Positions 15,218 to 63,973 of a DNA stretch of 64,000 nt are shown in pieces. Numbering within the stretch: position 1 is the stretch's first letter; each line of letters begins with the position of its first letter. Where the stretch lies: the NCBI GenBank assembly GCA_027014125.1, contig JALWEI010000020.1, positions 1 through 64,000 of the forward strand, written 5' to 3'. The DNA comes from Acidilobaceae archaeon. GTDB lineage: Archaea > Thermoproteota > Thermoprotei_A > Sulfolobales > Acidilobaceae. Made by a program: the position numbers and the translations under genes. Under the pieces are notes generated by a model. The model saw only the letters and a program-made list of their open reading frames with translations. It was not told the origin of the DNA and did no database searches.

Positions 15218-15314
15218 TCACAATCACCCTCCAGGCATGCTTATCCTGTATTTGGTAGGACTCGCTGGCTATCCTGTTAGAGGTTTGGTTTGAGCCTAGA
15301 AGTCAATCCCCAGA

Positions 15315-15788
15315 CTACTGCTGGGCATTCCACACCTTGTCCCCGGGCCTGTGGAGCACCTTAATGGCCTTCCCCCTCCTCTCCCCCTCGAGCCTGGCTT
15401 TTACCTCTTCTGATGCCATCAATGCAACTCCCACAGCTATAGGGGCCCCATACCTGTCATCCACTATAACGACAATGCCTCCCTCCTCGAAGTCGCCTTC
15501 AACCTTAGTGATGCCGGGGACCATCAAATCGGCCCCCCGGCCTACCGCCTTGGTAGCCCCAGGGTCGACCCTAACGCTGGGCAACTCTCCTACCCCGTGC
15601 TTAAGGAGCCAGCGGAGGTGTGGGAGCAGCCTTCCCCGCAGCTCGACGAGCCCCGGCTCCCCGTTAACCATATACACGGTAAACTCCCCGTAGTCAACTA
15701 GCTCCACCTTATCCTTGACCGTCAGGGGGAAGCCGGGGACCTCCTCCGCCACCCTAGCCGCTAGCCTCTTAACATCCTTCTTTGACAA
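15315..15788 (-). CDS. PUA-domain RNA-binding protein
   Basis: About 157 residues. The N-terminal half is a pre-PUA domain (SKKDVKRLAARVAEEVPGFPLT). The C-terminal half is a PUA domain with VDPGATKAVGRGADLMVPGI and AVGVALMAS, as in archaeal relatives of Tma20/MCT-1 that bind RNA or ribosomes. TTG at 15788 is preferred: GGAG sits about eight bases upstream and family similarity starts there. The frame remains open to 16028, but that part runs antisense through tRNA-Pro and is not coding. Confidence 0.8.
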   Translation of the reverse strand: MSKKDVKRLAARVAEEVPGFPLTVKDKVELVDYGEFTVYMVNGEPGLVELRGRLLPHLRWLLKHGVGELPSVRVDPGATKAVGRGADLMVPGITKVEGDFEEGGIVVIVDDRYGAPIAVGVALMASEEVKARLEGERRGKAIKVLHRPGDKVWNAQQ

Positions 15789-15855
15789 TGCATGTCTCCG
15801 AGAGGGTTTGCCAGCCACCAGGGGGCACCCATATCGCCTCCACGCCCGGGGAACA

Positions 15856-15864
15856 CTATAAATA
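15856..15864 (+). promoter_or_regulatory. A-box promoter of tRNA-Pro
   Basis: CTATAAATA is a consensus archaeal TATA element. Its centre is about 36 bases before the mature tRNA 5' end, so the primary transcript would carry a short leader removed by RNase P. Confidence 0.6.
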
Positions 15865-15895
15865 GCCCCCTGGAGCGCTATAGTAATCCATGGGT

Positions 15896-15973
15896 GGGGC
15901 CGTCGTCTAGCCTGGCTAGGATGCGGGGCTTGGGCCCCCGTGGTCCGGGGTTCAAATCCCCGCGGCCCCACCA
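15896..15973 (+). tRNA. tRNA-Pro (anticodon UGG)
   Basis: Complete cloverleaf: acceptor GGGGCCG pairs with CGGCCCC at 15963-15969, A73, and encoded CCA at 15971-15973. The anticodon stem is CGGGG/CCCCG with loop CTTGGGC, giving UGG for proline. The T arm is CCGGG-TTCAAAT-CCCGG. No intron is present. Its last 38 bases are repeated at 17208-17245, so it has probably served as an integration target. Confidence 0.95.
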
Positions 15974-16241
15974 ATACACAAAACCCATCCCAGCACATCA
16001 CCTCAAGAGAGTGCCAGGAGCTTGCCACGTCGTCATCTTCAGGCTAGCGTACTAGCATGTCAGCTGTGAATTCACCCAGCATTAAGCCGCCCCGTTCTCT
16101 CAGCACAACCCAGCGTATCCACCAGGATGGAGCCGTCAGTGACCCAGAGCTTGGGCCGCACCTGAGCCTAGAATTTTAGGATCTATTGAGTAAGGTTTTA
16201 TGTCACAGCTTGCGGGCTTTCCAAGCAACTTGATGCTATCT

Positions 16242-16730
16242 CTACAGCGCTAGAACCTCCCTTGGCGTGAAAACTTTTATTTTCAGCATTTCAAGGTCCT
16301 CCCTTTTGTAGTCGCTTGTGTTCCACGTTAGAATTATTACGTCCTCGTACACCCTCTGAAGGTAGATGGCTAGTGCTACGAAGGGTGCATCATCCGGGTC
16401 TCGAACATACTCCATCGCCGCTTTTATAAGGGGTTTAATGGCGTCGCTCTCTATTGTCCGGACGCTTGATAGGAGTAGGGTGAGTAAGTGTCTCTGCTCT
16501 GCGGGGGAGACCCTCTTTTTCCGGGCCAGGTACTCCGTTTTCTTGGTTAACTCTTCGAGAAGCGCCTTCGGAGCATAGAGGTCTGCCTGGTCTTCCAGAA
16601 GCAGTATAACTCTCCTAGTGAAGCCGCCTGGCTTTATTAGCGACGATATTATGATGTTAGTATCCAGCACTATTGCTGGTTTCCTAGTAGTTCTTTCCTT
16701 AGCCTCTTCTTCACCTCCTCCTCTAGCCAT
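16242..16730 (-). CDS. PIN-domain ribonuclease (VapC-like toxin)
   Basis: About 162 residues from the ATG at 16730. The PIN core starts IVLDTNIIISSLIKPGG with the first catalytic Asp. A conserved Glu lies in LLEELTKK, and the distal acids are in DPDDAPFVALA and the following TWNTSDY. This matches the archaeal PIN_2 type, metal-dependent RNases usually acting as toxins. GTG at 16670, overlapping the antitoxin stop, is an alternative start but would cut into the first beta-strand; the ATG has GGAGG ten bases upstream. It lies directly downstream of the small gene at 16670-16921, a typical toxin-antitoxin order. Confidence 0.8.
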   Translation of the reverse strand: MARGGGEEEAKERTTRKPAIVLDTNIIISSLIKPGGFTRRVILLLEDQADLYAPKALLEELTKKTEYLARKKRVSPAEQRHLLTLLLSSVRTIESDAIKPLIKAAMEYVRDPDDAPFVALAIYLQRVYEDVIILTWNTSDYKREDLEMLKIKVFTPREVLAL

Positions 16731-16921
16731 TCGGCTTCTTCCTCCGTGATTCCTAGCCTAGCTGCTAGTATCTCGATGAGAGCAAGCCTGATAGCCTTGG
16801 ATAGGGTTCTCTCATCCACTTCTAGCCCACTCGGTACCTCTACTTCTACTAAGACCTTCCTACTCTCAGCCATTACTTCCCCCACGTTACTAAATTCTAT
16901 GACCAGCCTTATATTCTCCAT
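16670..16921 (-). CDS. Putative antitoxin partner of the PIN protein
   Basis: 83 residues, or 67 if ATG at 16873 (MAESRKVLVEVEVPSG) is used. A short beta-strand part is followed by a helical, acidic C-terminus (AIRLALIEILAARLGITEEE, then EEEVKKRL), as expected for an antitoxin that wraps around a PIN toxin. It overlaps the PIN gene by 61 bases in another frame. On the minus strand an A-box-like CTTAAACAT lies near 16970-16978, giving a leader of about 20-25 bases. Assignment rests on size, order and composition rather than a recognised family. Confidence 0.6.
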   Translation of the reverse strand: MENIRLVIEFSNVGEVMAESRKVLVEVEVPSGLEVDERTLSKAIRLALIEILAARLGITEEEAEWLEEEVKKRLRKELLGNQQ

Positions 16922-17054
16922 TCCACAATCACAATGTTCTTCAACACGAGAGAGCGGGTCAAGGGTAGCAAATGTTTAAGTTAACGCGTACCATCAGGAA
17001 CGTTCAGAAAGTGGGAGAGCCTTTGCCCTCGTGAGCCAAAGGGAGGGATTAGTC

Positions 17055-17100
17055 ATACTAAGAGAAAATTCAATATAATATCTCTTAAAAATCTTAGTAT
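17055..17100. repeat. AT-rich inverted repeat inside the tRNA-Pro island
   Basis: ATACTAAGA at 17055-17063 is exactly complementary to TCTTAGTAT at 17092-17100, with 28 bases between. An alternative inner pairing joins AAGAGA (17060-17065) to TCTCTT (17081-17086). The spacer is AT-rich, unlike the chromosome around it. It could be a former recombination site, a terminator or an operator; no choice can be made. Confidence 0.5.
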
Positions 17101-17207
17101 ATGGGCATGAAGTCTAATTCACGAAAGGCCCCATATAGGAGTCCGGCTGTGCCCTCACGGCGTATAGGCCGTATGCCTTTCATTTAAGCTATGGCAGGCC
17201 TCAGGAG

Positions 17208-17245
17208 CCCCGTGGTCCGGGGTTCAAATCCCCGCGGCCACACCA
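17208..17245 (+). pseudogene. Partial copy of tRNA-Pro 3' end (attachment-site duplicate)
   Basis: Bases 17208-17245 repeat 15936-15973 with one mismatch (A at 17240 for C), covering the 3' anticodon stem, variable region, T arm, acceptor strand and CCA. The 5' half of a tRNA is missing upstream, so it cannot be functional. This is the expected trace of integration into the tRNA gene. Confidence 0.8.
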
Positions 17246-17253
17246 AGTATTGT

Positions 17254-19380
17254 TTATGCGTATGGGCTTCCTTGCGGCGTTTGCAATGACTTAGGTGGCC
17301 TAGCGGTTGCCCTCATCGTGTAGTCTAGTATCTTTAGCGCGGTTTTCCGTGAGAGGAACCTATTGTTTACCCCGCAGTACGGGCTGAATACGCATTTCGG
17401 GCATCCGTCTTCACATGTGCAAGATGCTAGTATGTTCTCGGCTATATCATGTATTCTCTCTAGCCTCTCGTACACTAGTTTCGATGCCCCGTGCCCTCCG
17501 GGGGCTGAGTCGTAGATGACTATGTGGCCGCTGGGGTAGCTTACTCCCCCTAGGTCTGTGTCTGACGCTCCTACTACTGGTCTTGCTGCTGCTATTATCG
17601 TGTGCTCTAGGGCGTGGTACCCGCTTATGAGTGCCACCTCATCGGTGATACCTGGGTTTGGATACCTTGTTGCTACTCCTTTTGTCCAGAAGATCCATTT
17701 TAGCGGTTCCCTATATGCGACCTCTGATAGCGTTGCTCCACTGTACTCGTCTTTCACGTAGTACCCTTCTACTGTGATTAGTATCTTGACGTCTGCGTAT
17801 ACAAGCCTCAGGGGGCCTAGGGTCCTGTCTTCTAGGGGGCTTATCTCTACTACGTCTATACTGTACATGGGTTTGGTGTAGAAGTTCAGGGAGGCGTCTA
17901 CCCTCCTTACTTCGGCCCTCATGGCCTCTATGTCTAGCTTCGTGCTAACGTAGGTCCTGCCTCCGTGGTAGTAGACTGCCCCGGGGTAGAGGTCGTAGAG
18001 GGCCATGGGCATCTCCCTCCTCCCTATCTCCTTGCCCGACTCGATTATCCTAACCTGGGGCCCGCTAGACCTTAGGCCTCCGTGGGCCTCTATGTAGTCC
18101 CTGAGCCTGGTCCATCTTGGGATTAGCTTGTCGCCTGCCCTTACCGCTAGCCCCATGACTTTGAGGTCCTCAGCGGCGGCTGCTAGCTCTGGGGGGAGCT
18201 GGTTTATGCTGAGCATTCCCCTCTGGAGTAGTAGTGCTGCTAGGTGTATCCTCGTTATCTCCCTGTTCCCCGGCTCTATGTAGCCTGGGTCGGGCTTCAT
18301 TGTGAATAGCTCTATGGGCTTGTTTAGGAAGTATGCCTCTATTGGGTCGTCTCCCATCACTGTTACTACTAGCCCTGGCTTGTCTCTCCTGCCCGCTCTG
18401 CCTGCCCTTTGTATGTAGCTGGATATGCTCCTTGGTAGGTGTGCCATGACCACTGCGTCTAGGTCTCCTAGGTCTATGCCTAGCTCCATTGTGGGGGTGG
18501 CTACTACTGCCTTTATCCTACCCTCTTTGAAGTCCTCCTCGACCCTTCTCCTATCCTCCGGCATTAGCCCGGCTCTGTGGACTCCAACCGTGACTCCGTG
18601 GCTTTTCCTCGCTATTCTTGCTATTAGCTCCGCCATCTGCTGGCTGTCAACGAAGCCTAGTACCTTGAGGCCCCTCCTGGCGAGTAGGGCGATTATGGAT
18701 GCCGTGGTGCTCCACCTGCTACCGTAGCCGTAGTCGGCTAGGAGGTGGAGCGCCGCCCCCTTCCTCCTGCGCGGCCCCTCTATAACCTCGACCTCCCTGC
18801 CGAATAGCTTGGATGCCATGTACCCTGGGTTGCCTAGCGTGGCTCCCGCACCTATAGCTGTGAAGCCTCCAGCTGCGTCTTCCAGCCTGTGGAGGACCCA
18901 CCTGACGTGGCTCCCGAATACTCCCCTGTAGACGTGCATCTCGTCTAGGACAACCACCTCTATGTTGGAGACTAGCCTCCTGAACCTGTCACTCATAGCC
19001 AGGCCGACGTGGACCATGTCTGGGTTGGAAACTAGTATGTGGGGCGGGTCACTGTATATGGAGACCCTCTCTCCCCGCGGCGTGTCCCCGTCAAGCACCG
19101 CCACTCTTATGCCTAGCCTACCCTCTGCCAGGACCTTGATCCTGTAGAGCTGGTCCCTGGCTAGCGCCTTGGTGGGGTACAATATGAGGGCGTAGGGCCT
19201 AGCCAGGCCGGGGCCCCGCCTGGTGATCTCGTCCAGTATAGGGGTTAGGAACGCCTCTGTCTTGCCTGTCCCCGTGCCCGAGACGATAACATGATCCACC
19301 CTCCTCCTGGCGGCCTCTATGGCTTGATGCTGGAACTTGTATAGCCTCCGGATCCCGAAGTACCTTAGCGCCTCGACCAC
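17254..19380 (-). CDS. DEAD/DEAH-box helicase with C-terminal DUF1998 zinc domain
   Basis: At least 708 residues. Superfamily 2 motifs in order: Q-motif region YKFQHQAIEAARR, Walker A VSGTGTGKTEAF, PTKALARDQ, DEMH box (VVLDEMHVY), GAGATLGNP, then the second RecA domain with TPTMELGIDLGDLDAVVMAHLPRSISSYIQRAGRAGR. The DUF1998 tail carries CTCEDGCPKCVFSPYC, a four-cysteine metal site. Relatives (YprA/MrfA type) are DNA helicases linked to repair. GTG at 19380 is the first usual start codon, but family-like coding sequence continues upstream in the same frame to about 19530. The N-terminus is therefore uncertain. Confidence 0.88.
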   Translation of the reverse strand: MVEALRYFGIRRLYKFQHQAIEAARRRVDHVIVSGTGTGKTEAFLTPILDEITRRGPGLARPYALILYPTKALARDQLYRIKVLAEGRLGIRVAVLDGDTPRGERVSIYSDPPHILVSNPDMVHVGLAMSDRFRRLVSNIEVVVLDEMHVYRGVFGSHVRWVLHRLEDAAGGFTAIGAGATLGNPGYMASKLFGREVEVIEGPRRRKGAALHLLADYGYGSRWSTTASIIALLARRGLKVLGFVDSQQMAELIARIARKSHGVTVGVHRAGLMPEDRRRVEEDFKEGRIKAVVATPTMELGIDLGDLDAVVMAHLPRSISSYIQRAGRAGRRDKPGLVVTVMGDDPIEAYFLNKPIELFTMKPDPGYIEPGNREITRIHLAALLLQRGMLSINQLPPELAAAAEDLKVMGLAVRAGDKLIPRWTRLRDYIEAHGGLRSSGPQVRIIESGKEIGRREMPMALYDLYPGAVYYHGGRTYVSTKLDIEAMRAEVRRVDASLNFYTKPMYSIDVVEISPLEDRTLGPLRLVYADVKILITVEGYYVKDEYSGATLSEVAYREPLKWIFWTKGVATRYPNPGITDEVALISGYHALEHTIIAAARPVVGASDTDLGGVSYPSGHIVIYDSAPGGHGASKLVYERLERIHDIAENILASCTCEDGCPKCVFSPYCGVNNRFLSRKTALKILDYTMRATARPPKSLQTPQGSPYA

Positions 19381-63871: not shown

Positions 63872-63973
63872 TGGAGCCGGGGCCGGGATTCGAACCCGGG
63901 ATCAAACGGGTATCTGCGATGGGCAGGCTAGCCTACTGCAGCCCGCCGCCTTTGACCGCTCGGCCACCCCGGC
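63872..63973 (-). tRNA. tRNA-Cys (anticodon GCA) with a 24-base intron
   Basis: Acceptor GCCGGGG pairs with CCCCGGC, discriminator U, and CCA encoded at the 3' end (63872-63874). Anticodon stem GCGGG/CCCGT with loop CTGCAG plus A after splicing reads GCA. The canonical 37/38 intron occupies 63912-63935. CTGC in exon 1 pairs with GCAG in the intron as the four-base central helix, flanked by bulges AGT and ATA, which fits the bulge-helix-bulge rule. The short variable loop excludes Leu and Ser. Confidence 0.9.

Follow-up and report, generated by a model that had tools for sequence, protein, structure and literature searches.

The window analysed here, a 64,000-nucleotide stretch of contig C20 in the 1.82 Mb genome of an Acidilobaceae archaeon (47 contigs; G000, with compared genomes numbered likewise), contains a tRNA-Pro(TGG) gene at positions 15896-15973 (plus strand, ARAGORN) that is followed by a short segment bounded by copies of the tRNA 3' end. 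Repeat comparison placed the proximal 39-bp attachment (att) core at 15936-15974 (plus strand), within the tRNA except for its last base, which lies one past it, and the distal core at 17208-17246 (plus strand). The two direct repeats are identical at 38 of 39 positions with a start-to-start spacing of 1272, and score 36.5 compared with a maximum of about 11 in shuffled DNA. The initial annotation had described these repeats correctly as 1.27 kb apart with a single mismatch, and only their length, given as 38, has been revised to the 39 nt measured. The 1272-bp segment that they delimit (15974-17245, not assigned to a strand) has a GC content of 48.5%, against 56-58% in the flanks. We analysed this segment as a candidate toxin-antitoxin cassette inserted at the tRNA.

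The cassette encodes a PIN-domain toxin of 162 amino acids on the minus strand (16242-16730; PIN_2/TIGR00305; PF10130 E 7.5e-20, TIGR00305 E 1.2e-10). Its acidic residues Asp23, Glu60, Asp113, Asp114 and Asp140 are invariant across three homologues, and no relative in the PDB was found by sequence. Upstream in the same operon, and overlapping the toxin gene, lies a gene for an antitoxin-like protein of 83 amino acids (16670-16921, minus strand). It matches no Pfam family, is conserved together with the toxin, and has homologues that adjoin tRNA-Pro in other genera; its AlphaFold model is poor (mean predicted local distance difference test score of 62). The pair fits a type II (PIN/VapBC-like) toxin-antitoxin system, with putative toxicity and neutralisation. 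Both genes bear the signature of purifying selection, with ratios of nonsynonymous to synonymous substitution rates (dN/dS) of 0.10-0.21 for the toxin and 0.06-0.22 for the antitoxin. No other gene was recognised in the interval, and neither an integrase nor an integrase fragment was found there, as the initial annotation had stated in naming the pair as the sole cargo. Thus, the window cassette, having no integrase of its own, is non-autonomous.

To place the locus in context, we compared it with 214 genomes of the order. In the congeneric genome G001, the window segments 15300-15974 and 17208-18500 match as one stretch with an overlap of 39 bp. The joined flanks are identical to G001 in 951 of 1026 columns (92.7%), the junction falls exactly at the core, and no antitoxin homologue was found in that genome. 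Since a congener carries the empty site, the 1272-bp segment is an insertion at tRNA-Pro, as the initial annotation had proposed, and a chance origin of the repeat can be rejected. A second congener, G003, retains only traces near tRNA-Pro (a 15-residue toxin match and an 18.9-bit module-like match). The toxin-antitoxin DNA of the window is 88% identical to a pair adjoining tRNA-Pro in G010, which belongs to another genus, and the homologue of the neighbouring helicase gene there is only 66% identical. Seven antitoxin loci that share at least 68% identity could be placed (the one in the window and those of G017, G010, G053, G046, G012 and G009); every one of them directly follows tRNA-Pro(TGG) on its downstream side, with patchy presence within genera. 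In another congener, G002, three contigs (L046 on C40, L199 on C104 and L200 on C153) break off, at one of their ends, inside tRNA-Pro and tRNA-Val 3' ends or immediately beyond them; these breaks look like assembly branching, perhaps caused by a mixture of occupied and empty sites.

When all 45 tRNAs of G000 were surveyed, three further cassettes came to light at two tRNA-Val genes. Two stand in tandem at tRNA-Val(GAC), the first with an AF2212-like and PemK pair and the second with DUF433 and DUF5615, and one at tRNA-Val(CAC) again contains DUF433 and DUF5615. Across the order we delimited 52 cassettes bounded by tRNA-Val or tRNA-Pro 3' ends, with a median size of about 0.82 kb (quartiles 793-1136 bp) and a median GC content of 39%. 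A toxin gene is present in 51 of these and belongs to one of seven families (DUF5615, 13; ParE/RelE-like, 12; PIN_2, 9; PemK, 9; VapC-type PIN, 6; TumE, 1; DUF4258, 1), as assigned by Pfam confirmation of representatives and extension by sequence similarity. The exceptions to the common plan are a 2.4 kb stretch with extra genes in G018 and an integrase remnant without a toxin in G117. The partners of the PIN_2 and TumE toxins in four cassettes (L118, L119, L044 and L041) match no Pfam family above the cut-off. The window holds a single cassette, and tandem arrays are seen at related loci, with five modules in a row in G077 and three each in G011, G016 and G010. The two-cassette block at tRNA-Val(GAC) of G000 recurs at tRNA-Val(CAC) in G011 with 88% identity over 1.7 kb. 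Judged from such sequence matches, cassettes have been exchanged between tRNA genes and between genera. At L267:10057-14286, beyond the tRNA-Val array of G018, a pair of ATPase-like genes is accompanied by another tyrosine recombinase, the second and shorter one (263 amino acids).

The distal ~150 bp of the tRNA-Val cassettes are conserved though the genes differ. This module consists of a block of repeated ATGCATATC, TGATATCA and GGATATCC motifs followed by the tRNA 3' end, and the tRNA-Pro cassettes have a related block, TGGCATATCA ... TTGGCATATCAGCTATATGCC ... TGGCATAT. The constant feature is a block of ~110-150 bp in which GCATAT/GATATC motifs recur, located immediately internal to the distal tRNA repeat (a core of ~40 bp). 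It stands after operons of either orientation, abutting the core, and no Rfam matches were found beyond weak ones over the tRNA itself. The block resembles arm sites and is a putative integrase-binding region. A profile of the Val module scored at least 50 bits at 68 places in 42 of the 214 genomes (tallied by hand from the score table), where a plain tRNA 3' end reaches about 41 bits. In the window, the corresponding arm block (17134-17207, plus strand) abuts the distal core and is decayed, with its motifs shifted towards GC (GCATAT to GCGTAT). Pairwise local alignment of this block alone was too weak to decide on its identity, which was settled by an independent arms-only Pro profile (R3) built without the window. 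With this profile, 17134-17207 was the top match across the 64 kb window (E 0.0007, with the runner-up at E 1.9), and it also picked up further Pro modules in other genera. We read the window copy as an older, perhaps immobile member of the family, with selection still acting on its toxin and antitoxin but with decay in its arm block and distal core.

Joining of new cassettes at the tRNA would make the outlying modules the older ones. In 23 of 28 within-array pairs (permutation P 0.003), all from arrays outside model building, the module nearer the tRNA has the higher score; arrays lacking a visible tRNA were ordered by module orientation. The same holds in 9 of the 11 pairs for which the tRNA lies on the locus (P 0.047).

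Integrase searches covered PF00589 and PF16795. A candidate helper is present in G017, where an element of at least 6.7 kb at tRNA-Val(CAC) has a tyrosine integrase gene (467 amino acids) that starts just past the tRNA. The far end of this element displays the same arm block (63 bits), although the core itself is lost at the contig end. Close homologues of this integrase lie at tRNA-Val in G063 and G006. Partial or decayed homologues adjoin tRNA-Pro in G025, G036 and G050, and another follows a Pro module in G134; the Pro module is also present in G025, where the element measures 7.45 kb. By these matches, the cassette module is carried on integrase-bearing elements as well. The integrase contains the motifs GLRP, YELR and a C-terminal tyrosine (R..YxxR..Y), and a relative on contig C21 of G000 has YSIR. 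The far end of the element that carries this relative lies off its contig. As in pNOB8-type integrases, the gene of the candidate helper stays intact beside the tRNA after integration.

Integrases of the Sulfolobus spindle-shaped virus (SSV) type were considered as helpers for the tRNA-Pro site and rejected because, wherever the site of such an integrase of G000 could be read, it indicated tRNA-Leu or tRNA-Glu. At C10:18675-27814 (L175), tRNA-Leu(TAG) is followed 9.0 kb downstream by a perfect ~46-bp repeat, and an SSV-type integrase (PF16795) adjoins that distant copy; this element is likely an integrated virus or plasmid. A 4.8 kb element at tRNA-Leu(CAG) (C22:82036-86961, L177) has a broken SSV-type integrase, and two further SSV-type integrase genes (C29 and C33; L176 and L178) have a tRNA-Glu-like 3' end nearby, a possible attP site in each case. 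Searches for a vector of the window cassette gave no match to the exact att 34-mer in viral contigs, only partial matches to the att core among phages and plasmids (for example tRNA-derived sites in SSV integrases), with no direct vector, and a single weak cyanobacterial match to the toxin among plasmids. The neighbours of the cassette are a PUA-domain gene on one side and a helicase gene on the other. At 63872-63973 of the window, the ARAGORN output includes an aberrant tRNA whose anticodon has four bases (gtag); the likely cause is misreading of a tRNA that contains an intron.

Taken together, we consider it probable that the window interval is a non-autonomous integrative cassette, a toxin-antitoxin operon with a one-sided recombination module, which docks at a tRNA by means of the integrase of a larger element acting in trans. 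In this scheme, larger elements resident at these tRNA genes would supply a tyrosine integrase that recombines a circular cassette into the tRNA 3' end. Each insertion would rebuild the tRNA, land beside it and push older cassettes outward, after which the toxin-antitoxin pair would stabilise the cassette. We infer the action of the integrase in trans, the circular intermediates and the stabilisation by addiction. That the cassette is kept for its addictive pair, as the initial annotation suggested, is plausible and agrees with the purifying selection on both genes. Several points weigh against this interpretation. The window arm block scores only 15.7 bits on its own, and the distal core or module is not recognisable at the tRNA-Pro toxin-antitoxin loci of G009, G010, G012, G046 and G053. 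An intact integrase specific for tRNA-Pro was not found in the compared genomes, many of which are draft assemblies, and the nearest G000 relative of the helper (C21:1517-2872, L179; intact, 451 amino acids) adjoins tRNA-Thr(GGT) and not tRNA-Pro. Neither a circular intermediate nor recombination has been observed.

The initial annotation had described the interval as a very reduced integrated element, and in that case a larger tRNA-Pro element with its own integrase would have been stripped to the toxin-antitoxin pair and the att copies. tRNA-Pro sites do hold both full-size and cassette forms: full-size elements of 7.2-7.5 kb are known (G025 and G124), some of them decaying, and the toxin-free stretch of G117, which measures 1.75 kb, is at tRNA-Pro. 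We nevertheless regard such a remnant as unlikely, given that nearly every stretch keeps a toxin gene, drawn from seven families, within a narrow size range, and that independent decay would not produce tandem arrays or the two-cassette block common to G000 and G011. Dozens of elements share the same size and plan, often in tandem, with a conserved block and varied toxin families. So many small elements of one plan with a conserved module argue for an inherently small kind of element that is mobilised in trans, rather than for the leftover of one large island. We give still less credence to the module being a regulatory element of the host or of the toxin-antitoxin operon (a promoter, terminator or small RNA), with the cassettes moving by homologous recombination between tRNA genes or flanks. 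The sequence of the module is in itself no proof of integrase binding, and tRNA-Val isoacceptors have common 3' ends that are able to pair; yet the module follows operons irrespective of their orientation, abuts the core, is shared with an integrase-bearing element and has no Rfam counterpart outside the tRNA, and the junction in G001 coincides exactly with the core. Duplication can yield tandem tRNA fragments, but an ancient tRNA fragment with toxin-antitoxin genes nearby by chance is scarcely credible: the empty site of G001 refutes it, and the patchy presence of the loci and their recurrent association in other genera also speak against it.

The non-autonomous cassettes resemble integrons and clusters of attC sites lacking integron-integrases (CALINs), the latter defined as cassette arrays without an integrase (PMC11389934). 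In both, small cassettes stand in rows with one operon and one recombination site each, many cassettes encode toxin-antitoxin systems, the integrase is supplied elsewhere and the newest cassette lies beside the docking site, which in our case is inferred. Archaea have been reported to harbour true integrons with attC sites (PMC9668308). Here, however, a tRNA gene takes the place of attI, recombination sites consist, by sequence, of a tRNA 3' end with an arm block instead of attC, and the candidate helper is an archaeal integrase with a pNOB8-type motif instead of IntI. In its working the system is integron-like, but its sites set it apart from integrons. pNOB8-type elements have 40-50-bp att sites in tRNAs, integrase genes that remain intact after integration and the R..YxxR..Y motif, and the activity of their integrases is listed as undemonstrated (PMC8371274). 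The candidate helpers fit this description, whereas the cassettes lack integrase, replication and transfer genes. SSV-type elements, with suicidal integrases, also target tRNA 3' ends in the same hosts, as in the 9-kb element at tRNA-Leu(TAG) of G000, but their att site lies inside the integrase gene, of which the window cassette has no fragment. Cis-mobilizable elements (CIMEs) are flanked by att copies, moved in trans and derived by deletion from a larger element. Integrase-less tRNA islands, tycheposons, and miniature inverted-repeat transposable elements (MITEs) or "hitcher" elements (PMC11389934) likewise have att copies or terminal sites at their borders and are mobilised in trans. In contrast to these elements, the cassettes described here are far smaller than usual islands, contain a single toxin-antitoxin operon and a constant module, and form tandem arrays; MITEs rely on transposases and not on tRNA-specific integrases.

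The open-access papers that we searched deal with tRNA-integrated elements, archaeal integrons, CALINs and vapBC genes in variable regions, but we found in them no account of toxin-antitoxin cassettes arrayed at tRNA genes; subscription work, including older papers on Aeropyrum and on archaeal gene capture, was outside the search. There is perhaps an even chance that the cassettes represent a second, independently evolved integron-like system, in which an archaeal tRNA gene provides the platform for docking, integrases of the tRNA type are the recombinase held in common, and the standard cassettes are toxin-antitoxin operons that build up in ordered arrays and are traded between tRNA genes and genera. 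This would give archaea a tRNA-based analogue of the integron and would explain orphan tRNA 3' ends beside toxin-antitoxin pairs. The question becomes testable in cultivable Aeropyrum. Self-contained cassettes with their own recombination block may be a route by which toxin-antitoxin systems have spread so widely in hyperthermophilic archaea.
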